A stretch of DNA of 64,000 nucleotides from Deltaproteobacteria bacterium (GCA_016183065.1 JACPFF010000027.1:1-64000), one strand, 5' to 3'; shown: positions 22,064-35,889, counted from the stretch's first letter. The notes: generated from the letters alone by a model not told the origin. Translations and numbers: made by a program.

Positions 22064-24013
22064 ATGCCGACTCGACGATATGTACGATCCATCCTTATGA
22101 TAGGCCTCCCCATCTTTCTCATGGCCTGTGAAGAGGGGGCTGCGCCACCCACTCCTGCCACACAATCCACTCCTGCCGCACAATCGGGAGAATCTGGCGA
22201 AATCACCCTTCCCGACAACATAGCCGTCACCACACCACTCCAAACAACGCCACAACCACAACCGCTCCCTATCCCACCGCTTTTACCAGGGGCCGAAACC
22301 TTTGACGCAACAAATGTCGCAGGGACGACCGATAGTGTGACATCGGAAGAGAGTGCCGCCGGATCACCGATCGCGGAGGAGACAGTCGAACTTCCGGTCG
22401 ATACGCCGGCAGACAACGGTTCTGGTTCGCTCCCCATTGAACCGCCATCTACTGATGAGACACCAACAACCCCCGATGAGACAACCCCCATTGCCGAAGA
22501 ACCGCCACCCCTCAGCAAACCGGTCACCCCACTGACCCCGATCTCTGCACCCGCGACGCCACCAACAGGCACGGTGTGGGTTGCCCGGACCGGAACGGCC
22601 ACGGCAAGTGAACCAAACGCCGGCACACTGCAGCATCCCTTCGGTTCGTTGGCACAGGCCATTCAATTTGCGAAGACTCAAATTGCCGCAGGGATCGCAG
22701 TGCCGATGATCGGCATGCTCGCGGGTACATACAATGTGGTGCCCATCACCGAAGACTTTTCGGACATAGAAAAGGGGATTCATGGGGGATTCACGGTCAC
22801 AAAAGGTGGTGGCACCGAATATCACCCGCTCAACTATGCCGTCTCCTGCGTCGAGACCACTATGACCTGTCTCTCCGCCACCTCTTACAAATCGCTCTTC
22901 ACACTCCGTGGGAGTTCACTGACCAATCTCTACATGCAATTCTCGCCCCCTGCTGGCAAGGGTCCGTTTGCCGCGATCGCCATGGCTCAGGGTTCCGATC
23001 TCTTCAATTCCACGATCGTCATTACCACGCCATCGACGGACGCTGTGTACGGAATTTCCGTCAATCCCCGGCTCGTTGCTGCCGACGACCCGCATCCCCA
23101 ATCCACCATTCTCTTCAATCGGATTGTGATCAAGGGAGCACAAGGGACGGCCATTTACGCATCATACACCGAAACACCGAATGTCTCGCTCCTGATCGCG
23201 TCCAATCGCGTCCTTGTCTCCGGGGCAATGTCGATGGGCATCATTGCCGAGATATGGCGAAGCGGAACCGTGAAGATCGCGAATAACCATGTCCGCGGCA
23301 GTGTCGGGACCTCTGCTGGCGGGACCGCGATCGGCGCCTTAAAGGCGGAAAACGTCCGTATAGAGGGGAATGCCCTCACGATGACCATGGAAGACGGTGC
23401 CACGTCATTCGCACTCGGCGGGATCGTCGCAAAGACGATCAAACAGCTGGTCATCGGGACCAATGGGATCCTCCTCACACTCCCCGCCACTGCATCAACC
23501 ACGTTTCTCAGTGGCATTGAGCTCGGCCCGGAGATTACGTCGGCGGGCATCTGGCAGAACACGGTTCGTCTCGTCTCTGCCGGGACGCCGAACAACATGT
23601 CCGGAATCAAAATCGCGACACCGACGGCGCTGCAGGTCATCAACAATCTGATCTCGCTCGATCAACAATCGCAGGTCGTCCCATTGGTACTAAGCAAAGA
23701 GGCACAGAAGGCCTTTTATGGCGATTATCCCAATTACATCCAGTGGCGCAACAGCGCTTCCGTGGGGAATACCGCTCCGCAGGGAGCAAATATGCAATGG
23801 GGTACCTTCATGGCAGATCCCCCGGTCACGGCCGGACTGCCTCTCTCGGCGAAACTTTTTTCTCTCATCCCTGGGCATCAAGCCATTGCGATCGATCAGG
23901 GCGAGGTACCGCCGCCAGCGGCATCGCCGAATGGGAAGGCCATCAAGGATTTGCTCGGTCAGTCCCGTCCGCTGGGCAAGGCCTTTGACCTGGGGGCCAT
24001 CGAATATCAGTAG
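22064..24013 (+). CDS. Beta-helix surface lipoprotein
   Basis: Lipoprotein with a signal peptide and lipobox FLMAC (lipidated Cys22). Residues 23-165 form a long Pro/Thr/Glu-rich linker. From about 170 (GTVWVARTGTATAS, then GTLQHPFGSLAQAIQFA) the protein has the features of a right-handed parallel beta-helix, as in pectate-lyase-like folds: repeated short strands with Asn and Val/Ile ladders. It ends GAIEYQ, a frequent end of such surface proteins. No catalytic residues can be assigned. AAAGGAG precedes the ATG. The last seven bases overlap the end of convergent thrC. With the divergent GH9 gene it suggests surface polysaccharide binding or breakdown. Confidence 0.8.
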   Translation: MPTRRYVRSILMIGLPIFLMACEEGAAPPTPATQSTPAAQSGESGEITLPDNIAVTTPLQTTPQPQPLPIPPLLPGAETFDATNVAGTTDSVTSEESAAGSPIAEETVELPVDTPADNGSGSLPIEPPSTDETPTTPDETTPIAEEPPPLSKPVTPLTPISAPATPPTGTVWVARTGTATASEPNAGTLQHPFGSLAQAIQFAKTQIAAGIAVPMIGMLAGTYNVVPITEDFSDIEKGIHGGFTVTKGGGTEYHPLNYAVSCVETTMTCLSATSYKSLFTLRGSSLTNLYMQFSPPAGKGPFAAIAMAQGSDLFNSTIVITTPSTDAVYGISVNPRLVAADDPHPQSTILFNRIVIKGAQGTAIYASYTETPNVSLLIASNRVLVSGAMSMGIIAEIWRSGTVKIANNHVRGSVGTSAGGTAIGALKAENVRIEGNALTMTMEDGATSFALGGIVAKTIKQLVIGTNGILLTLPATASTTFLSGIELGPEITSAGIWQNTVRLVSAGTPNNMSGIKIATPTALQVINNLISLDQQSQVVPLVLSKEAQKAFYGDYPNYIQWRNSASVGNTAPQGANMQWGTFMADPPVTAGLPLSAKLFSLIPGHQAIAIDQGEVPPPAASPNGKAIKDLLGQSRPLGKAFDLGAIEYQ

Positions 24014-25290
24014 TCCTTGAGGAGGTCGTGCAGTGCCGAGGGGGTTGCGGCCGGCAACATCACCCGCTGCAAGGGACGCGCGCAGGTCGCCTGGAGCGAT
24101 TCCGGCCTCTCCGGCGTTGCCCCGGTGGTCGCCGTCACGATGTCGGGAAACTTGGCCGGATGCGCGGTGGCGAGAATCAGAGCGTGCGCCGCAGGATGAC
24201 GCATGGCTGCCGCACAGGCCATGGCCGTGTGCGGGTCGATTACCAGGCCATGGCGTGCATGGATCTCGTGCATGACAGCCTGCGCTTCGGCATCGGTAAT
24301 CACGCAGCCGGTGATGTCGTGGGCCATGGCCCCGGCATCATCATGGTAGAGCGTTCGTAGTCGTTCGAAATTGCTCGGTGCACCGACATCCATGGCATTG
24401 GCCATCGTCGGAACCGTCGATCGCGGGGCATACCGGCCCGTAGCCAGATACCGTGGCACGGCATCATTGGCGTTGGTTGCGCCGATGAAGCCGGCAATCG
24501 GCGCCCCCATCCGCTTGGCCAGCACACCGGCGGTGAGATTGCCGAAGTTGCCGGACGGCACCACCATCGTGAGCGGCGACGGCTGTGCGGTGCGGAGGGC
24601 GAAATACCAGTAATAGATCGTCTGCGGCAAGAGACGGCCGATATTGATCGAGTTGGCCGAGGTCACATGCCATCCGTCGAGACGCTCATGCTGCAGCGCC
24701 TCTTTCACCAATCGCTGGCAATCATCGAAATCGCCGGGCACGGCCACGGCAGTGACATTGCCGCCCCATGTGGCGATCTGCTGTTCCTGGACCCGGCTGA
24801 TCCGCCCGAGTGGATAGAGAATCACGGCACGGAGCCGTTCGCGCCCATGGCAGGCTGCGGCGACCGCGCTCCCTGTATCGCCCGAGGTGGCGGTGAGGAT
24901 GAGCGCTTGTTCATTGTCGCGTGCCATGATGCGGTCGAGGAGCCGCATCAGAAATTGCGCGGCGATGTCTTTAAAACTGAGCGTTGGCCCGTGAAACAGC
25001 TCGCCGAGTTCCCACGGTCCGCAGGAGCGCAATGGCAGGGGAAAATAATAGGCCTCTCGGACAATCGCGTCGAGCCACGCAGCCGCGAGATCCTCGCCAA
25101 ACCACGCGGTGGCGATCCCGGTGGCAATGGTCAGGAAATCGGCCCGGTGACGCCATCCACTCACGGTCTCGCACGGCACCACAGGAACCCGTTCGGGGAG
25201 GTAGAGTCCCCCGCCTGGTGCCAGACCGGCAAGGAGCGCTTCCTTGAGTGAGGCCCGATGCCGGGCATTGCGCGTACTCTGATACAACAT
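24007..25290 (-). CDS. thrC: Threonine synthase
   Basis: PLP enzyme that converts O-phosphohomoserine to threonine. 427 aa, similar to the E. coli-type enzyme. PLP lysine is Lys107 in GPTLSFKD, the same number as in E. coli; other motifs are TATSGDTGSA, VPSGNFGN and the N-terminal GGGLYLPE. GGGAG sits six bases before the ATG. Third gene of thrA-thrB-thrC, 101 bases after thrB. That gap, unlike the five-base thrA-thrB gap, contains hairpin-rich repeat sequence that may affect expression. Confidence 0.97.
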   Translation of the reverse strand: MLYQSTRNARHRASLKEALLAGLAPGGGLYLPERVPVVPCETVSGWRHRADFLTIATGIATAWFGEDLAAAWLDAIVREAYYFPLPLRSCGPWELGELFHGPTLSFKDIAAQFLMRLLDRIMARDNEQALILTATSGDTGSAVAAACHGRERLRAVILYPLGRISRVQEQQIATWGGNVTAVAVPGDFDDCQRLVKEALQHERLDGWHVTSANSINIGRLLPQTIYYWYFALRTAQPSPLTMVVPSGNFGNLTAGVLAKRMGAPIAGFIGATNANDAVPRYLATGRYAPRSTVPTMANAMDVGAPSNFERLRTLYHDDAGAMAHDITGCVITDAEAQAVMHEIHARHGLVIDPHTAMACAAAMRHPAAHALILATAHPAKFPDIVTATTGATPERPESLQATCARPLQRVMLPAATPSALHDLLKDY

Positions 25291-25520
25291 GGACTCTCCC
25301 GACTGCGTGCGACGTCCATCCCGTGCGGATCGGGAGATCCCCGGTCAAGCCGGGGGATGACGGCTCGTTGCCTGCAGATGACCGTTTTTGATTACAGGGG
25401 CTCGCGTCGCCCCCTCCACCGGCAAAGCCGGTGGAGCCTCCCCCTCACGCTCGCCGTGCTCGCTGGATCGCTTCCCACGGGCGACGCGAGCTGCCGAGGA
25501 CCGCGCGCTTGTCCGTGGGA
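25291..25520. repeat. Hairpin-rich repeat element at the thrB/thrC junction
   Basis: Contains CCCCGG-(5)-CCGGGG (about 25343-25359) and a perfect CTCCACCGGC-AAA-GCCGGTGGAG hairpin (25413-25437), then CTCCCCCTCACGC. The segment 25405-25465 resembles 62109-62232 in the order and wording of its blocks. It encodes the atypical last 42 residues of thrB and fills the thrB-thrC gap. Confidence 0.65.
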
Positions 25521-26462
25521 AGCTATATGGGCTCCCGGCGCTCCAAACGCCCCAATCCAGCTCGTGCACGCGACATGCGCCGCACGAAAGGCCTCCGACA
25601 TGGCCGTCTCGACGCGAGCGGCATCACTGCGGCGCACCACACTACACATGGCCGGCCCGGAACCGGCAATGGTACAACCGAGGGCCCCCGCCGCTGTGGC
25701 AGCCCGTTTCACCGCCGCATAGCCCGGAATCAGGCGACTGCGGAGCGGTTCAATGAGGCGGTCGTCGAGGAGGCTCCCAAGTCGTGGCAGATCCTCCTCG
25801 TAGAGGGCCGCCACCAGGGCCCCCACTTGCGCCCATTGGCGCACGGCATCGCCCAGCGGAATGGCGGCAGGCAAGATCTTGCGGGCTGCTGCCGTCTCCA
25901 CCACCACCGCCGGATGCACGACCACGTAGTGAAGATCGTGCGGGGTTGGCAGGGCCATGACCTCCGTCGGTTGATGCGCAATGACGAGCTGCCATCCACC
26001 GAAGAGCGCCGGCGCCACATTGTCCGCATGCGGCGTGCCGCTTGCGACTCCTTCGCCTGCAACGGCAAATGGGAGGAGGGCCTCGCGCGTCAGGGTCCCG
26101 CCAAAGAGTTGATTGGCCGCCATTGCCGCGGCCACAGCGCTCGCCGCCGAACTCCCCATGCCGGAACCGATCGGAATGGCTGCAGCGATTTTGACTTCTA
26201 CATCCTCCTGCACGCCGTAATGGGCCATGAGGGCCTGCGCCGCGGCTCCCGCGGTATTGCGCGTCGGGTCGGTCGGAAGTTCGGGACGATTCGTCCGGAT
26301 GCGGATGCCCCGACCCCCGGCATCGCCAAACCGGACGGTGACCGTCACCCCCGGCTCGGCCATGGCAAAGCCGAAGACATCAAAACCTGGTCCCACATTG
26401 GCTACCGTTGCGGGGGCCCATGCGCTGATCCCTTCCTCTCTCGTTGCGCTGCTCTCCTTCAT
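25392..26462 (-). CDS. thrB: Homoserine kinase with an aberrant C-terminal tail
   Basis: GHMP kinase that phosphorylates homoserine, the step before threonine synthase. 356 aa against about 310 in E. coli. The N-terminal APATVANVGPGFDVFGFA and the ATP loop PIGSGMGSSAASAVA (about 97-111) are typical, as is the late AGSGPAMCSV. Conserved sequence ends near residue 314. The remaining 42 residues are Arg/Ser/Gly-rich and encoded by the repeat element at 25395-25520, so the native stop has probably been replaced. Five bases after thrA. The core looks intact, so activity is likely retained. Confidence 0.93.
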   Translation of the reverse strand: MKESSATREEGISAWAPATVANVGPGFDVFGFAMAEPGVTVTVRFGDAGGRGIRIRTNRPELPTDPTRNTAGAAAQALMAHYGVQEDVEVKIAAAIPIGSGMGSSAASAVAAAMAANQLFGGTLTREALLPFAVAGEGVASGTPHADNVAPALFGGWQLVIAHQPTEVMALPTPHDLHYVVVHPAVVVETAAARKILPAAIPLGDAVRQWAQVGALVAALYEEDLPRLGSLLDDRLIEPLRSRLIPGYAAVKRAATAAGALGCTIAGSGPAMCSVVRRSDAARVETAMSEAFRAAHVACTSWIGAFGAPGAHIASHGQARGPRQLASPVGSDPASTASVRGRLHRLCRWRGRREPL

Positions 26463-26467
26463 GCACT

Positions 26468-28927
26468 CTACCCTGTGGTCAACAAGTGGGCCACCTTGAG
26501 GATGTCGGCAAAAACCCCGCCCGCGGTCACATCCGGCCCGGCACCTGGTCCCCGCACGATCAGCGGATTGGTGCGATACCGTGCGGTCGTGAAGACGACC
26601 AGATTATCGCCACCACGCAGACTCCCAAAGGGCGAGTCCCGTTCGACTGCCGTGAGGCGCACCGAACACCGGCCATGCTTGATCAGCCCGATGTAGCGAA
26701 GCACCTTTTCCCGCTTTGCTACCGCGACCACGCGCGCGCGGTAGGCGTCGTCAATGGTCGTGAGGCGCCGAAAGAATTGGGCAACTGTTCCTCCACGACG
26801 CAGCGCCTTGGGAAGGAGCGGCTCCACCGCCACCTGCGCCAGCGTGCACCGCACACCCATGGTCCGCGCCAGAATGAGCAATTTCCGCGCCACATCGAGA
26901 CCCGACAGGTCTTCGCGCGGATCGGGTTCCGTAAACCCGCGCCTGTGGGCATCGCGGACAATCGCACTGAAGGCCCGGCCCGCCTCGAGTTCGCTGAAGA
27001 GAAAACCGAGCGTTCCCGAGAGCGCGGCCTCAATCTGGAGGATCGTGTCCCCGCTGTCGATCAAATCCTGCAGCGTGGAGATCACCGGCAATCCGGCACC
27101 GACGCACGTCTCGTAGTGATAATAGGCGTTCCGCCGACGGATCAACTGTTGTAATCGGTCATAAAACGGCTGCGACATGGTATTGGCCTTTTTGTTCGGC
27201 GTCACAATACTCACTCCGGCGGCCAACCACTCGGGATAGCGCGCCGCCACGTGATCGCTCGCCGTGGCATCGACGAGAATCAAATTTTCGAGACGGCTCT
27301 CGATCAAGGTCTTCGTCAGCTGTGAAAGCGCCGATGCCTCCCCACGTGTCACCAGTTTTTTCCACTGCCGCACCTTGAGCCCCGCGGGGGTGAAACAGCC
27401 CTCGCGCTGACCGAGGATCCCCACGACATTGACCTGCAGATCACGATCGCGAACAAGCCGCTCCTGGTTTTCGGCGATCTGCTCCAGCAACTTGCTTCCG
27501 ATGGTCCCTTTCCCGATCAGCACGACATTGACATGCCGACGGGCCAGGTGAAATGCCCCATGGATTACATTGATGGCCTTGGTCGCATCGGCCGCTGCCA
27601 CGACCACGGAGATATTGAGTTCCGACGATCCTTGTGCAATCGCCACCACATTGATCGCATTTTTTCCGAGCGCTGCAAAGAGACGGGCCGCCACACCGGG
27701 CGCCCCCTGCATCCCCGCACCGACCACTGCGACCACGGCAATATCATTGCGACAGTCGATGCGACGGATATCGTGTCGTGCCATCTCGGCGGCAAAGACC
27801 TCGCGCACGACACGGCGCGCCCGCACGGCATCCTGGCGGCGGATGACGCAGCAGATGCTCTGTTCCGATGAGCCCTGGGAGATAAGGATGACGTTGATCT
27901 GCGCACGCGCCAGGGCATCGAACATCCGCGCGGCCACTCCATTCACGCCCACCATCCCCGCGCCTTCGAGACTGAGCAACGTGACATCGGCAATGGCGGT
28001 GATCCCTTTCACCGCACGGGCCCACCGGCCGGTCGCGGACGAGATCAGCGTCCCGGAAAACCCGCGATGCCCCAGGTTGCGAATGCGGAGCGGGATCCCC
28101 GCCTCAATGGCGGGAATCACGGCGCGCGGGTGGAGAACTTTGGCCCCGAAATAGGCCAGCTCCATGGCCTCGGCATAACTGAGCTGTTCGAGCGGAAACG
28201 CTTCGGAGACCAGCGCCGGATCGGCACTCATGACCCCATCCACATCGGTCCAGATCTCGATCTCGCGGGCCTTGAGGAGTGCGCCGATCAGCGCCGCAGA
28301 GTAATCGGACCCGTTGCGTCCGACGGTCGTCGGCACACCATCGGGCGTGGCGGCAATAAAGCCGGTGATCACCGGGATCTCTCCGCGCCACGTGGCCTGG
28401 GCCGTCTGTAGACGCTGACGGGTCGCCGCGGCATCGACCACGGCATTGCCAAAGTCGGCATCGGTCACGATGAGCTGACGTGCATCCACCGGGACGGCCC
28501 GCAAGTGCTTCCCCCGCAACACGCCCGCGATCAGCTGTGATGAGAGCAACTCTCCATAACCGATCACGCGGTCGCGCGTCCGCGCCGTGCACTCCCCCAC
28601 CTGCGCAATGCCGTGGAGTAGTGCCTCGATTTCCTCTCCCGCTGTCACAAGGGTTCTTTGCAAGGGAGTACGCAGGCGCGCAGGAATGGCCGTGCGCAAC
28701 AGGACCGTATGGTGCCGGAGGATCTGCCGCAGCCGCGCGCGGAGCGTCGGTAGCCGTTGTTGTTCTGCCGCCGCAATGCAGGCAAGAAGGGCGTTCGTGA
28801 CCCCGGAGAGGGCGGAGACCACCACGATGGTCGTATCGCGCCGTTGGGCCTGCCGCACCACTTCGGCCACAGCCAGACAGTCCGCCGCCGACCGGAGGGT
28901 GCTTCCGCCAAATTTCAGGATCCGCAT
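26468..28927 (-). CDS. thrA: Bifunctional aspartokinase/homoserine dehydrogenase
   Basis: A fused enzyme catalysing the first and third steps of the threonine/methionine branch from aspartate. 819 aa, as in E. coli ThrA. Aspartokinase domain at about 1-290 (KFGGST at residues 5-10, GRNGSDYSAALIGALL), then tandem ACT domains (310-460) that normally sense threonine. The homoserine dehydrogenase part follows (about 465-819): the NAD(P) loop reads IGKGTIGSKLLEQ rather than the usual GVGGVG-type loop, with later GTLGFLFSELE and FTEPDPREDLSGLDVARK. AGGAAG precedes the ATG. First gene of the operon; I see no clear Thr-rich leader peptide or attenuator in the 96 bases upstream. Confidence 0.96.
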   Translation of the reverse strand: MRILKFGGSTLRSAADCLAVAEVVRQAQRRDTTIVVVSALSGVTNALLACIAAAEQQRLPTLRARLRQILRHHTVLLRTAIPARLRTPLQRTLVTAGEEIEALLHGIAQVGECTARTRDRVIGYGELLSSQLIAGVLRGKHLRAVPVDARQLIVTDADFGNAVVDAAATRQRLQTAQATWRGEIPVITGFIAATPDGVPTTVGRNGSDYSAALIGALLKAREIEIWTDVDGVMSADPALVSEAFPLEQLSYAEAMELAYFGAKVLHPRAVIPAIEAGIPLRIRNLGHRGFSGTLISSATGRWARAVKGITAIADVTLLSLEGAGMVGVNGVAARMFDALARAQINVILISQGSSEQSICCVIRRQDAVRARRVVREVFAAEMARHDIRRIDCRNDIAVVAVVGAGMQGAPGVAARLFAALGKNAINVVAIAQGSSELNISVVVAAADATKAINVIHGAFHLARRHVNVVLIGKGTIGSKLLEQIAENQERLVRDRDLQVNVVGILGQREGCFTPAGLKVRQWKKLVTRGEASALSQLTKTLIESRLENLILVDATASDHVAARYPEWLAAGVSIVTPNKKANTMSQPFYDRLQQLIRRRNAYYHYETCVGAGLPVISTLQDLIDSGDTILQIEAALSGTLGFLFSELEAGRAFSAIVRDAHRRGFTEPDPREDLSGLDVARKLLILARTMGVRCTLAQVAVEPLLPKALRRGGTVAQFFRRLTTIDDAYRARVVAVAKREKVLRYIGLIKHGRCSVRLTAVERDSPFGSLRGGDNLVVFTTARYRTNPLIVRGPGAGPDVTAGGVFADILKVAHLLTTG

Positions 28928-30438: not shown

Positions 30439-30852
30439 CTAGACACTTTCCACCGGAAGCCGTAGCCGTCGTGCCGCCTGTAATTGACGCTGATCAGCGG
30501 AGAGAAAAAGATCGCAGTGTGCGGAGAGGGCACAGCCGAGCTGTAACGCATCGAGCGCTTTGAGTGGCGCACGTTCAAGACATTGGATGGTGTATTGCAA
30601 AACCAATTCCGAAAGATCGAGAATAGTGGCCTGTTCGATATCCCGTGCAAAATCGGCTTTCATTTGCCGATAGTGCTTTGCCGTGAGTTTCTTTTCCCGC
30701 CGCAACCGGTTGAACGCGGAAATCATCTCTGGAATCGTGACGATGCAGAGGAGAATTTCGGTGGCCTGCGCACAATGGTCTGCAACGGCGACTGTCCCTG
30801 ATTCCTCCACGTACCGTTTCGCCAAGGCGGAAGAGTCCAAAAAAAGGCGCAT
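30439..30852 (-). CDS. vapC: PIN-domain ribonuclease toxin (VapC-like)
   Basis: 137-aa PIN-domain protein. Acidic residues typical of the metal-dependent nuclease site: Asp6 (LFLDSSALAKRY), a central Glu (TIPEMISAF), and a C-terminal Asp pair (KALDALQLG, FLSADQRQL). Toxins of this family cleave specific RNAs, often tRNA or 23S rRNA. The ATG at 30852 starts four bases after the antitoxin stop; the frame is open further upstream inside the antitoxin gene, but conserved sequence begins here. The pair is leftward and convergent with the FHA gene. Confidence 0.88.
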   Translation of the reverse strand: MRLFLDSSALAKRYVEESGTVAVADHCAQATEILLCIVTIPEMISAFNRLRREKKLTAKHYRQMKADFARDIEQATILDLSELVLQYTIQCLERAPLKALDALQLGCALSAHCDLFLSADQRQLQAARRLRLPVESV

Positions 30853-30856
30853 GCTG

Positions 30857-31078
30857 TCACTCCGCTCGTTCCCGCACAATTGCCGCACTGAGCGATGCCC
30901 CACGAACCCTGCGTGGCTGACTGATTTTCCAGCGCGCTAAGGATTTATTGCTGACCGGAGAAACAATGGCGATGGGTTTGCCATTCCGGTATACTTCCAA
31001 TGATTCCCCCCGTTCCACCGCATCAAAGTACTTTCGTGCATTATTGCGCAATTCGCTGAACGTCACATTGTGGGTCAT
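30857..31078 (-). CDS. vapB: Phd/YefM-type antitoxin
   Basis: 73-aa antitoxin. The N-terminal half (NVTFSELRNNARKYFDAVERGESLEVYRNGKPIAIVSPV) is the Phd/YefM fold, which binds DNA as a dimer; the C-terminal ~30 residues, rich in Arg and Ser, should wrap the toxin. GGAGG lies eight bases before the ATG at 31078. Directly upstream of the PIN toxin. The palindrome at 31102-31117 overlaps the -10 box and is the probable autoregulatory operator. Confidence 0.88.
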   Translation of the reverse strand: MTHNVTFSELRNNARKYFDAVERGESLEVYRNGKPIAIVSPVSNKSLARWKISQPRRVRGASLSAAIVRERAE

Positions 31079-31101
31079 CGAAGCAGCCTCCAAATTTGAG
31101 C

Positions 31102-31163: not shown

Positions 31164-32282
31164 TCACAGTGTTTTATTATAGATAGCGTATTGTTTCTCC
31201 GCCTTGCCGCCAAACCCTTCGGCCAGGCTGTTCATCCCCGTGTTGTCGCCGAGGACCCAGGTGATCTCGCCAGAGCGATACCCGGCGGCCGGACACCGCT
31301 CCCAGGACTCGGCGATGAGCAACACGCCGATCCCCTGCGATTGATATTCCGGCAAGACGGCAAACGCATAGCCGCGCATGCTCTGGATGTCGGACTTGCG
31401 GAAGAGGATCCGATAGAGCCCCTTCGGAAAGAGCCGCCCGCGACAATCGTGAAGAATATCGTTGTAATTTGGGAGGTTGATCACCACGCCTACGGGACGA
31501 CGGTCGACTTCGGCAATCAAGATGATGCGGGGATCGGCAATTCGCCGCAAGTCGCGCGCCATGGCACGGACCTGCTTTTCCGTGAAGGGGACAAAACCCC
31601 AGTTATTCTTGAGCGCCTCGTTGAAGATCTGCCGGATGATCTCGGCCTCTTCGGAGAGTTTCGCGAGATCGATCGGTCGCACCACGAGCCCCGGCACGCG
31701 CCGCGCCTGTGCCACGCGCTCGACAATCCATGCGGGGAGGGGAAACTCGCTCGTGACCGAGTAGGAGTTCAGTCGCATGGTCTCGGTGAGACCGGCCTGC
31801 CGGGCATGGTCCAGATAGTACGGCTTGGAATAGGGCATCATGAACATGGGCCGGAGGTGAAACCCCTCGCGCAAGAAACCGGGGGCCGGATCTTCGAGCC
31901 GAAAGTTGTAGGGTCCGACCATTTTTTTTGCCCGCCGCTCCCGCAACCACGCCTCCGCAGCGCCAAAGAGCGCGGCCCCGACCGATCGATCGTCGATCGC
32001 CTCGTAGAACCCGAAATTCCCCTCTCCCGGCGCATCGCCTGGATGGGCCAACCGGTCGATCTGTGCACTGATGCGTCCCACAACCGTCCGTCCGTGTGTG
32101 GCAAGGAAGAGGACCGCATCGCTCTGCCGAAAGAAGGCATTTTTTTCGGGATCGAGACGTTGTGCGAGTTCGAGGCGGAGCGGCTCGATCCAGGCATCGC
32201 CGCGGCCATAGATGCGCCGCGGGAGATTCAGGAAGGCCCGGCGACTCCGCGCTGAGCGGACGTGGACGATCGTCGGCGTCAT
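31164..32282 (-). CDS. GNAT-fold acyltransferase, probable bacterial ceramide synthase
   Basis: A 372-aa protein with a C-terminal GNAT-like region (residues 255-350: acetyl-CoA-site-like VLPEYQSQGIGVLLIAES) and an N-terminal region of the YghO-like group (FLNLPRRIYGRGDAWIEPL; NFRLEDPAPGFL). Its start overlaps the stop of the serine palmitoyltransferase gene by four bases (ATGA), so the two are translationally coupled. In Caulobacter a GNAT-family protein has been reported as the bacterial ceramide synthase (bCerS) working with Spt. By family and coupling I infer N-acylation of a sphingoid base here. No signal peptide. Another acyl-transfer role cannot be excluded from sequence alone. Confidence 0.72.
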   Translation of the reverse strand: MTPTIVHVRSARSRRAFLNLPRRIYGRGDAWIEPLRLELAQRLDPEKNAFFRQSDAVLFLATHGRTVVGRISAQIDRLAHPGDAPGEGNFGFYEAIDDRSVGAALFGAAEAWLRERRAKKMVGPYNFRLEDPAPGFLREGFHLRPMFMMPYSKPYYLDHARQAGLTETMRLNSYSVTSEFPLPAWIVERVAQARRVPGLVVRPIDLAKLSEEAEIIRQIFNEALKNNWGFVPFTEKQVRAMARDLRRIADPRIILIAEVDRRPVGVVINLPNYNDILHDCRGRLFPKGLYRILFRKSDIQSMRGYAFAVLPEYQSQGIGVLLIAESWERCPAAGYRSGEITWVLGDNTGMNSLAEGFGGKAEKQYAIYNKTL

Positions 32283-33547
32283 GAGGCAAACAAGGCGCTC
32301 AAATCATAATAGTCGGCCGGTGGGAGTGTGGCAGGATCTTGGGCAAAGTGGGTGGTCCTGATCTGATAGGGATCCGCGAGTGCGTCAAACGCCTTGATGA
32401 TCGCGGCGATATCCTCGGTCGTATGCGACGCCATGTACGACGTTCGGATGAGGGCGTGGCCATACGGCACGGCCGGATACGCCACCGGTGTCGCAAAAAC
32501 GCCGAGGTCACGCAGGGCCATGGTCAATTTGAAGGCCTTTCCTTCGGCACCGACCCATAGCGCCAAAATCGGGGCCTTCGAGGGCATGATGTACATACCA
32601 ATCTCTTCCAATCCGTGTCGCGCAAACGCACAATTGCGCCACAATTGCTCACGATGGGTCGATTCGGTGGACATGACTTCCAGGGCGGCGATGGCCGCCG
32701 CGGCACTGGCGGCGGGGATCGACGCGCTGAACCAGAGAGGTCGCGCCTTGTGGCGGATATATTCGATCACCTCCGGCTCGCCGGCCACAAACCCGCCGAT
32801 CGAGGCAAAGGACTTCGAAAAGGTCCCCATGAGGAGATCGACCTCTCCCTGCACATCCCAATGTTCGGTAATACCGCGGCCCGTCTCCCCAAACACGCCG
32901 AGTCCGTGGGCATCGTCCACGTAGATCCGGACGTGGGGATGCGCACGCTTGATCGCCACCAGTTCCCGCAGCGGCGCAATGTTGCCGGTCATGGAAAAGA
33001 CACCGTCGGTCACGATCCCCGCGCCGCCTGCACAGGGCGTCGCATCAATTTTGGCGCGACAATCGGCCGCGTCGGCATGGGCATAGCGAATGACGCGACC
33101 GCGACTCTGGCGACACCCGTCGATGATCGAGGCATGGTTATCGGCATCACTGAAGATGCAATCCTCGGATTCAAAGAGACACCCGATCGTCCCGTGATTG
33201 ACCATAAATCCGGTCGAAAAGACGAGAGTCTCCGGTTTGCCGACAAATCGCGCGAGGTTGCGCTCGAGCTGCACGTGGAGGCTGGTGTTCCCGTTGAGGA
33301 ACCGGGAACCGCTACACCCCGTGCCATAGCGTTCGAGGGCGGCCACTGCCGCGGCCTTGACGCGGGGGTGGTGCGTCAATCCGAGATAATTATTCGATCC
33401 GGCCATGATCAGACGCTTGCCATGACAATGAACATGCGCGCCGGCCGACTCCTCGATCTCCTGAAAAAACGGATAGGCCCCCGCGGCCTTCACCAGTTGC
33501 GGCTGTTGGTAAAACTCGTGACACTTCTCGAATAAATCCTTTGCCAT
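32279..33547 (-). CDS. spt: Serine palmitoyltransferase
   Basis: PLP-dependent alpha-oxoamine synthase that condenses serine with a fatty acyl thioester to 3-ketosphinganine, the entry into sphingolipids. 422 aa from ATG 33547, the size of soluble bacterial SPT. Motifs: YPFFQEIEES, GSGCSG-type GTGCSGSRFLNG, DADNHASIIDGCRQ (PLP-stacking His138), VDDAHGLGVFG (Asp211, His214) and Lys245 in GTFSKSFASIGG. The SRFLNG..LHVQLE block and IDGCRQ segment look much more like Bacteroides and Sphingomonas SPT than like glycine C-acetyltransferase or AONS, the main alternatives. No membrane segment. Coupled to the GNAT gene downstream and divergent from an alcohol dehydrogenase. Confidence 0.85.
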   Translation of the reverse strand: MAKDLFEKCHEFYQQPQLVKAAGAYPFFQEIEESAGAHVHCHGKRLIMAGSNNYLGLTHHPRVKAAAVAALERYGTGCSGSRFLNGNTSLHVQLERNLARFVGKPETLVFSTGFMVNHGTIGCLFESEDCIFSDADNHASIIDGCRQSRGRVIRYAHADAADCRAKIDATPCAGGAGIVTDGVFSMTGNIAPLRELVAIKRAHPHVRIYVDDAHGLGVFGETGRGITEHWDVQGEVDLLMGTFSKSFASIGGFVAGEPEVIEYIRHKARPLWFSASIPAASAAAAIAALEVMSTESTHREQLWRNCAFARHGLEEIGMYIMPSKAPILALWVGAEGKAFKLTMALRDLGVFATPVAYPAVPYGHALIRTSYMASHTTEDIAAIIKAFDALADPYQIRTTHFAQDPATLPPADYYDLSALFAS

Positions 33548-33562
33548 TGGGTTGGCGCGACC

Positions 33563-33589
33563 TTTATACAGTGGCTTGCATGAAGTCAA
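33563..33589 (-). promoter_or_regulatory. Putative promoter of spt
   Basis: On the minus strand, TTGACT (33589-33584), a 15-base spacer and TATAAA (33568-33563), about 15 bases before the spt ATG. It lies in the divergent region before the dehydrogenase gene. Confidence 0.5.
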
Positions 33590-33636
33590 GCGACCACAGG
33601 TCTGATAATCTCTCTGTCCGTGCAGCACGAGAGACC

Positions 33637-34848
33637 ATGCACGCTCTCCAGTTCGAACTCTCTATCCCCAGGTATCTGCTCAACAAAACACTTTGCCACC
33701 TTGCCCCCCACCATTTTTTTCCGCGCGTCAGCCTCCTCCACGAGCGCCGCGTCCCCGTGCCATCGCTCCCGAATGCCGAATGGGTCCGTGTGGCGATCGA
33801 GGCGTGCGGAATCTGTGGCAGCGATCTCAATGCCTTGCGCGGCCACGAAGCCTACTCCATGGAGCCGTACGCGAGCTTTCCGGCCGTAATGGGCCATGAA
33901 ATTGTCGGACGCGTCGTGGCGTGTGGTGACGCGGTGCCCGAGGTCCCGCTGGGAACGCGGGTGGCCGTCGAAAACATCCTCCCGTGTGCCCCGCGCGGGA
34001 TGACACCACCGTGCGCGGCCTGCGCCCGCGGCGACTATGCCCTCTGCGAACACTTTGCGTGCGGCGCCCTTCCTCCCGGTGTCTGTCTCGGTTTTACCCG
34101 CGGACTGGGCGGTGGCTTTGGCAAATATGTGGTTGCACACCGGAGCCAATTGTTTCCCCTCCCCGACGACGTACCGCTCGACGCTGCGGTCCTGATCGAC
34201 TCGCTGGCCTCGGCCCTCCAGCCGGTGGCCCACCATCGGCCGGCGCCCGGTGCCACAGTGCTGGTCTTCGGAGCGGGGATCATCGGTCTCCACGTCGTGC
34301 AGGCCCTGCGTGCCACGGGCTTCACCGGCCAACTCGTCGTCGTGGCCCGACACCGTTTTCAGGGAATGCTCGCCAAACGCTTCGGGGCCAGCGCCATCGT
34401 CCTGCGCAACATCATCCACTATCTCGCCGAACTGACCGGCGCCACGGTGCGACGGCCCACCCTCGGTCCACCAGTGCTCGACGGTGGCGTGGATCTCGTC
34501 TTCGACTGCATCGGGTCATCGCACAGTATCGACACGAGCCTCCGCATCACCCGCAAACGGGGGACGGTGGTCGTGGTCGGGACGGCCGGGGCCTTGTCGC
34601 GCGTCGATGCCTCGCCCCTCTGGTTCAAGGAGATCACGCTCACCGGGAGTGCGCTCTGTTCCACAGCAGAGATTGGGGGCCTCCGCCAACGGACGTATCA
34701 ACACGTGATCGACATGCTCTCGGACGGCCGCCTGCAGAGCGAGGGGCTCGTCACACACTGGTTCCCGCTCCACGAATATCGCAAGGCCTTTGCCACCGCC
34801 CTCGACAAGCGCCGCCACCAGAGCCTCAAAGTCGCATTTCGGGTGTAA
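33637..34848 (+). CDS. Zinc-type (MDR) alcohol dehydrogenase
   Basis: Medium-chain dehydrogenase/reductase, about 403 aa. N-terminal catalytic zinc motif EACGICGSDL with GHE further on; a Cys-rich structural-zinc-like lobe (PCAPRGMTPPCAACARGDYALC) with an unusually long first spacing; a Rossmann fold with FGAGIIGLHV, then FDCIGSS and VVVGTAG. It reduces or oxidises an alcohol/ketone with NAD(P); the substrate is unknown. It is divergent from spt, so a role as ketosphinganine reductase is attractive but unproven: the reductase reported in Caulobacter is from the short-chain type. The start is uncertain (33580 is also in frame); conserved sequence begins soon after 33637. Confidence 0.82.
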   Translation: MHALQFELSIPRYLLNKTLCHLAPHHFFPRVSLLHERRVPVPSLPNAEWVRVAIEACGICGSDLNALRGHEAYSMEPYASFPAVMGHEIVGRVVACGDAVPEVPLGTRVAVENILPCAPRGMTPPCAACARGDYALCEHFACGALPPGVCLGFTRGLGGGFGKYVVAHRSQLFPLPDDVPLDAAVLIDSLASALQPVAHHRPAPGATVLVFGAGIIGLHVVQALRATGFTGQLVVVARHRFQGMLAKRFGASAIVLRNIIHYLAELTGATVRRPTLGPPVLDGGVDLVFDCIGSSHSIDTSLRITRKRGTVVVVGTAGALSRVDASPLWFKEITLTGSALCSTAEIGGLRQRTYQHVIDMLSDGRLQSEGLVTHWFPLHEYRKAFATALDKRRHQSLKVAFRV

Positions 34849-34892: not shown

Positions 34893-34934
34893 TTATGTAT
34901 TTTATAATTTACATTATGTATTTTATGATTTACA
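34893..34934 (+). promoter_or_regulatory. Two tandem 21-bp direct repeats in the MNT/HEPN promoter
   Basis: Copies at 34893-34913 and 34914-34934 differ by one base (A/G). Each contains a -10-like hexamer (TATAAT at 34903-34908; TATGAT at 34924-34929). AT-rich in a GC-rich setting; probable promoter plus operator for the HTH-bearing protein that follows. Confidence 0.75.
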
Positions 34935-34942
34935 ATCGCAAC

Positions 34943-35473
34943 ATGTTATATCTCGATCGAGCCAAGCTGGAAGAGGTGCTGCGACGCCACGGGCTCTCGC
35001 TTGCGGCGCTTGCACGGCAGGCGGGAATCTCTCGACAGAGTCTCTACCTGATGTTCAAAAATCAACCAGTGTTTGCCATCCCCTTTCAGCGAGTGTTGGA
35101 TACGTTGCATATCGATTATCGAGCGATTACCAAAGACATGTCTGTCGGCGACACCATGATGGCGGTGGCTCCCATACAAATCCATAAGGTCACCATGCAA
35201 CTCATTGAGTTCTGTCGCCACCATCATGCCGACCTGGTCCTTTTTGGTTCGCGGACACGAGGGAAAATGACGATTCAGGCGGATTGGGATTTTGGGGTCT
35301 GGTTTCGCAGGACAATAGATGATTACCCTCTGCGAGTCCTCAAACAGCAACTCGTGGACCGTGCGTTTCCCTATCGCATTGATGTGGTGAACCTCAATCA
35401 GGCGCCGCCGTGGTTTCGAAAGTCGGTAGACGCTCACCATGTTGTCCTGTACGGAGCATATCGATGCCACTGA
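34943..35473 (+). CDS. HTH-MNT fusion: minimal nucleotidyltransferase antitoxin
   Basis: 176 aa. An N-terminal Cro-like helix-turn-helix (about residues 5-55: LRRHGLSLAALARQAGISRQ) is fused to a minimal nucleotidyltransferase (about 80-176) with the active-site pattern GSRTRGKMTIQADWDFGV (GS, ten residues, D-x-D). In MntA-HepT systems the MNT protein silences the HEPN toxin by adding AMP to a Tyr. The HTH fusion is the notable addition and suggests direct autoregulation at the tandem repeats upstream. Several ATGs lie within those repeats; I chose 34943 because the folded HTH begins just after it. There is no Shine-Dalgarno. It overlaps the HEPN gene by ten bases. Confidence 0.82.
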   Translation: MLYLDRAKLEEVLRRHGLSLAALARQAGISRQSLYLMFKNQPVFAIPFQRVLDTLHIDYRAITKDMSVGDTMMAVAPIQIHKVTMQLIEFCRHHHADLVLFGSRTRGKMTIQADWDFGVWFRRTIDDYPLRVLKQQLVDRAFPYRIDVVNLNQAPPWFRKSVDAHHVVLYGAYRCH

Positions 35474-35889
35474 CCCACGTTGACAGCATGAAACAGCAGA
35501 CCATCGCAGCGTTGCAGTGTCTGCATGCGGCGTTGGAACATCTCCAACAAGCCGCCTCAGACAAAGCGCTGCAAGATATTCTTGAAGACGCGGTTGTCAA
35601 ACGTTTCGAGGTGCTCTTTGAATATGTGTGGAAATTACTGAAGGCCGCGGCAGAATATCAAGGGGTGGAAGCCCCTGGTCCCCGTCCGGCCATCCGTGAA
35701 GGCGTCCGTTTCGGATGGATTACCGATCCAGATTTTTGGGCCGTCGCACTCGATGCCCGCAATGGAAGCGTGCATGATTACTTCGGGATGTTGATGTCGG
35801 AATATCTGAAGTTGATCGTCCGTTTTGCACAGGAAACCTCGACGTTGTTGGACAAACTCTCGCAGTCATTCGACAGAGCACGACGATAG
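35464..35889 (+). CDS. HEPN-domain toxin (HepT/HI0074-like)
   Basis: 141-aa helical protein. The segment VVKRFEVLFEYVWKLLKAA with a following IREG and the motif Arg99-x4-His104-x-Tyr106 (RNGSVHDY) match the RX4HXY signature of HEPN ribonuclease toxins. In that family Arg and His form the RNase site and the Tyr is the AMP acceptor. ATG 35464 has GGAG eight bases upstream; an internal ATG at 35488 is possible. Overlap with the MNT gene implies coupled synthesis of toxin and antitoxin. Confidence 0.85.
   Translation: MPLTHVDSMKQQTIAALQCLHAALEHLQQAASDKALQDILEDAVVKRFEVLFEYVWKLLKAAAEYQGVEAPGPRPAIREGVRFGWITDPDFWAVALDARNGSVHDYFGMLMSEYLKLIVRFAQETSTLLDKLSQSFDRARR

Follow-up and report, generated by a model that had tools for sequence, protein, structure and literature searches.

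A stretch of 64,000 nucleotides from an uncultured Deltaproteobacteria bacterium (GCA_016183065.1 JACPFF010000027.1:1-64000; "the window" hereafter denotes this whole stretch) contains a sphingolipid locus of known type whose keto-reductase has probably undergone a new non-orthologous replacement. The locus consists of the genes for a serine palmitoyltransferase (SPT), a tandem-GNAT acyltransferase and a divergent medium-chain dehydrogenase/reductase (MDR) (Table 1). Our preferred reading, held with somewhat better than even confidence, is that this order makes ceramide, an animal-like membrane lipid, by the ordinary bacterial pathway except that CerR, the epimerase-type SDR, has been replaced by an MDR that depends on zinc and probably uses NADPH. 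SPT would form a 3-keto long-chain base from an acyl thioester and serine (or a related amino acid), the YghO-type GNAT would N-acylate this base, and the 3-keto group would be reduced by the divergent zinc MDR instead of CerR; the substrate, the direction of the reaction, the cofactor, the order of reduction and N-acylation as well as lipid production are predicted here. The basis consists of the families of the three proteins, their conserved linkage and the failure to detect a CerR ortholog, all of which were computed in this study.

Spt, bCerS and CerR have been stated to be present in all sphingolipid-making bacteria (PMC11087976), while non-homologous replacements have only been speculated about (PMC11334938). 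Surveys that demand CerR would overlook lineages of the kind proposed here. CerR is itself puzzling, as in Caulobacter it resides in the periplasm, where no NADH is obviously available, and there is disagreement on whether reduction or acylation comes first. This order could be tested directly in a lineage whose reductase is unrelated to CerR and probably soluble and cytosolic.

Table 1. Features of the putative sphingolipid locus, in coordinates of the window
Feature	Position	Strand	Description
SPT	32279-33547	-	422 aa; PLP-dependent alpha-oxoamine synthase; Pfam PF00155
GNAT	31164-32282	-	372 aa; tandem-GNAT acyltransferase, YghO / bacterial ceramide synthase (bCerS, 'aca') family
MDR	33580-34848	+	422 aa from ATG 33580; zinc-type MDR, proposed ceramide-pathway keto-reductase; PF08240 + PF00107
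ATGA overlap, SPT stop / GNAT start	32279-32282	-	Translational coupling
SPT-MDR intergenic region	33548-33636	.	Divergent; 32-89 bp depending on the MDR start; possible shared promoter region

Gene layout

All three reading frames are open and intact, and they are taken as real genes rather than chance frames because their products are conserved at 58–65% identity in two further genera. The four-base overlap in which the stop of SPT meets the start of GNAT, as described by the first-pass annotation, is present (ATGA) and is repeated in genome G020, the two genes being approximately 120 bp apart in G024. The divergent arrangement of SPT and MDR was also found in the loci L058 and L059, and a consensus scan of the intergenic region returned no promoter match. 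The annotation had also reported that no ACP lies nearby, in agreement with the single PF00550 match of the genome, which is located on another contig; four genomes were found to have one ACP each, none of them near the SPT-GNAT locus.

Serine palmitoyltransferase

The four SPT-like blocks previously read in the PLP enzyme (YPFFQEIEES, SRFLNG, IDGCRQ and GTFSKS) were all recovered in its translation. Compared with the other NCBIfam models, the SPT model NF047600 ranked first (454 bits), with 358 bits obtained for the BioF model and the same value for the higher-scoring KBL model of two; the SPT, BioF and KBL scores are all under the models' own curated cut-offs. NF047600 is a Bacteroidota SPT equivalog with a cut-off of 640 bits, and the PLP enzyme was not filed in this narrow group because its score falls below that value. 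The closest relatives in the PDB are the structures of Sphingobacterium multivorum SPT (8guh and 3a2b, E 1e-103), and the cysteate acyltransferase 28eh was matched at E 2e-68. In a maximum likelihood tree of 35 sequences, the protein clusters with the two types of bacterial SPT of known structure (3a2b, 2jgt) and with the annotated E. coli spt, in a clade whose split from KBL/BioF received support of 100/100, with E. coli KBL and BioF, Thermus KBL/AONS and the KBL of the window's own genome (G000) remaining outside. In the alignment, GSRFLNG (GSR-LNG) and GTFSKS with the PLP lysine are common to the window protein and the SPTs and absent from KBL. The choice between the SPT, KBL and AONS families, which the first reading had left to be checked, is settled by the tree in favor of SPT and away from KBL/BioF. 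We consider the identification as a serine palmitoyltransferase by descent to be strong, serine condensation itself being a prediction.

Acyltransferase

The PF00583 match of the GNAT protein lies in the C-terminal half. Homology of the protein to E. coli YghO extends over the full length (35% identity over 369 residues), and the tree placed it inside the YghO/bCerS family, as had been suspected when it was proposed as a ceramide-synthase candidate. A structure model built from a four-sequence alignment (pLDDT 68.6, medium confidence) had tandem GNAT structures as its best matches (Z about 21). The assignment to the YghO/bacterial ceramide synthase family is strong, and N-acylation is the activity predicted from it. 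The reference proteins for bCerS and CerR came from E. coli, Rahnella and Roseomonas. In the trees, the stem of the window order is long for GNAT (1.59 changes per column) vs. short for SPT (0.22 changes per column), and because the GNATs of the trio sit on this long stem their substrate may have shifted; we would guess that it changed when the reductase changed, e.g., from ketosphinganine to sphinganine.

Some public names in this family are misleading: the bCerS-family GNAT of Roseomonas (L121 5935-7095) carries the misnomer "dATP pyrophosphohydrolase", and the yghO product of E. coli MG1655 (L057 9044-10216) is misnamed "putative DNA-binding transcriptional regulator YghO". An IS5 element sits at the beginning of yghO in E. 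coli K-12 MG1655 (L057 10147-11341), at the site where intact strains hold spt, ACP, epimerase and acyl-AMP ligase genes (compare L126).

Divergent dehydrogenase

Two in-frame start codons are candidates for the MDR, ATG 33580 and ATG 33637, and the ortholog alignment is conserved only from 33637 on, which makes the latter the likelier start. Residues C79, H106, E107 and D207 as well as C136, C145, C148 and C156 are invariant in the alignment of three orthologs, and from knowledge of the family we take the first group to be the catalytic zinc residues and the second to be the four structural zinc cysteines; R257-H258 is likewise invariant across the three. An Ala/Gly-Arg following beta-2 of the nucleotide fold aligns with the Ala-Arg of 1e3j, an NADP(H)-dependent ketose reductase, an alignment suggestive of NADPH and hence of the reducing direction. 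The enzyme probably uses NADPH, and it is probably soluble and cytosolic.

By profile and zinc sites, the ketose reductase 1e3j, RspB (4ilk) and the zinc-binding dehydrogenase 4ej6 belong to the same MDR family as the window protein, but they share only a distant profile similarity with it (97–114 bits) and differ from the MDRs of the trio, which have an N-terminal extension of approximately 30–50 residues. No close relative with a solved structure was found, and a single-sequence AlphaFold model (pLDDT 37.5) was left out of the argument. Outside the phylum, plasmids yielded only generic MDRs (best 34% identity to the window MDR), three further genomes gave MDR matches of at most 81–84 bits, and viral contigs had no MDR. 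No MDR-type ketosphinganine reductase was found in the literature; the role as pathway reductase is suggested by synteny, co-occurrence and sequence.

Comparison with known ceramide loci

The N-acyltransferase gene that E. coli carries as yghO is named "aca" in the rhodobacterial ceramide gene set (PMC9386255). Where the E. coli cluster is intact, it comprises spt, ACP, epimerase/dehydratase, acyl-AMP ligase and yghO, a gene set also found in Rahnella; the E. coli strain BL21 has a set of its own. The SPT and YghO/aca-type GNAT of the Spt-bCerS-CerR systems (Caulobacter crescentus, E. coli yghO cluster) are homologous to the window pair (PMC9386255, PMC11087976), and the first and the N-acylation steps are expected to be the same. 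In contrast to these systems, no CerR/epi ortholog was found in the genome of the window, which has the divergent MDR instead, and neither a dedicated AcpR nor an acyl-AMP ligase lies beside its SPT-GNAT genes. In the operons of family f16, which belongs to this phylum, and of plasmid 1 of Rubrobacter radiotolerans, GNAT directly follows SPT as it does in the window, but the third gene is a CerR-like SDR, whereas the window order is without it and has the MDR. Since the f16 SPT is the sister lineage of the SPT of the window order (100/99) and is arranged as SPT-GNAT-CerR, replacement of CerR by the MDR would be the simplest history.

Distribution in the phylum

GNAT is present in 22 of the 46 genomes of the phylum and is adjoined by SPT in 20 of these, a linkage that recurs in Rahnella and Rubrobacter. 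Of the 22 GNAT genomes, 18 have a CerR-like SDR that groups with the E. coli epimerase, directly behind GNAT in 13 (one of them with a short ORF in between) and elsewhere in the genome in the remaining ones. In searches with a 12-sequence profile, CerR-like proteins scored 255–508 bits (271–508 bits in these 18 genomes), while no CerR ortholog was found in G000, G020 and G024, whose SDRs reached only 151–156 bits (156 bits for the best one of G000), the level of a second paralog (150–195 bits) that CerR-positive genomes have too. The split between this paralog and CerR is weakly supported in the SDR tree (SH-aLRT 71), and it is the gap in bit scores that carries the argument. Genome completeness was 88.8% for G000, approximately 88% for G024 and 99% for G020, and the CerR-negative result was the same in G020.

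Across the 46 genomes, orthologs of the MDR were found only in G000, G020 and G024, in each case head-to-head with SPT. The co-occurrence of MDR presence and CerR absence gave a Fisher p of 0.0026, a value that ignores the relatedness of the genomes, and the pattern probably reflects one evolutionary event in one order. Every member of this order that has the SPT-GNAT pair keeps the dehydrogenase beside it, so that the synteny proposed for checking holds; the order-mates G021–G023 have neither the pair nor the MDR. Within 20 kb the trio represents the only genes common to the window and the G020 locus, i.e., the three genes stay together while their surroundings change. The first-pass annotation had raised the possibility of a different reductase solution, and this idea gains support because CerR orthologs are missing in exactly the MDR-bearing genomes, G019 apart; its "two-gene core" would be better described as a set of three genes in which the reductase has been exchanged.

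G019 (98% complete) is the fourth GNAT genome without CerR: its locus L075 has the SPT-GNAT pair, and neither a CerR-like SDR nor the MDR was detected in the genome. A missing CerR does not, therefore, require the MDR, and the pathway may tolerate other solutions. The neighbors of the pair in L075 are a glycosyltransferase/polysaccharide deacetylase fusion upstream and an FAD oxidoreductase downstream.

Alternative readings

Pairs of kbl and tdh have a similar make-up: a PLP alpha-oxoamine synthase next to a zinc MDR by which a 2-amino-3-keto and a 2-amino-3-hydroxy compound are interconverted. Tdh is a zinc MDR whose reaction, in partnership with an alpha-oxoamine synthase, is the reverse of the one proposed for the window MDR. 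The locus might accordingly be read as a KBL/BioF-type enzyme with its threonine dehydrogenase and an unrelated GNAT, the MDR scoring 106 bits against the Tdh models. We consider this highly improbable. That score is far from the curated cut-offs (458 and 380) and the identity to Tdh proteins is just 22–26% (25% to E. coli Tdh), which excludes the MDR as an L-threonine 3-dehydrogenase, while a KBL/BioF identity of the PLP enzyme is ruled out by the fully supported split in the tree together with a separate kbl-tdh pair in the same genome. This pair lies adjacent on another contig (C29, L081 8704-10959) and looks genuine (617 bits for KBL against a cut-off of 460; 375 bits for Tdh, slightly short of its cut-off of 380), providing an internal contrast to the SPT-MDR pair, whose members belong to other subfamilies and whose MDR is proposed to reduce a lipid. 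Use of alanine, glycine or cysteate by the SPT homolog, with GNAT and MDR acting on the resulting base towards deoxy-sphingolipids, sulfonolipids or another amino lipid, is quite unlikely in our view: a cysteate acyltransferase does belong to the same family, the substrate is not readable from the sequence and the SPT score is under the equivalog cut-off, but the nearest solved relatives are true SPTs by a wide gap in E-values and the SPT hallmark blocks are retained.

A more serious alternative, though still an unlikely one, is that SPT and GNAT make ceramide while the MDR acts elsewhere, at a head-group or precursor step, and reduction of the keto group is left to an unlinked housekeeping SDR or does not take place. 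Such an activity has a precedent in BT_0972 of Bacteroides, a classical, KDSR-like SDR with 3-ketosphinganine reductase activity (PMC9278070), and G019 appears to manage with neither CerR nor MDR. Against this stand the exclusive head-to-head link of the MDR to SPT in all three genomes, its absence elsewhere in the phylum, and the lack of CerR in just the MDR-bearing ones. Within the preferred reading of an exchanged reductase, a more elaborate scenario is tentatively conceivable, in which a cytosolic, NADPH-dependent MDR displaced CerR and moved keto reduction to the cytosol, possibly ahead of N-acylation as in the eukaryote-like order, with the GNAT re-specialized for sphinganine. If so, the contrast between the long GNAT and the short SPT stem would be a trace of the switch in reductase and order.

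Flanking genes

Behind GNAT lie a PIN-domain toxin gene (30439-30903, minus strand) and a short upstream antitoxin-like gene (approximately 30891-31080, minus strand), which we assign to a VapBC-type pair; a good sigma-70-like promoter match is located at this pair (31135-31106). Just behind the MDR, a nucleotidyltransferase gene and a HepT-like partner (34895-35473 and 35410-35889, plus strand) form an MNT/HepT-type toxin-antitoxin pair, so that toxin-antitoxin pairs border the lipid genes on either side. In G024, too, the MDR is followed by a HepT-like gene (L059 12292-12882). Further away in the window (24007-28927, minus strand), genes for threonine synthase, a homoserine kinase-like protein and a fused aspartokinase-homoserine dehydrogenase-like protein lie in a row, the latter two names resting on a reading of the translation only.
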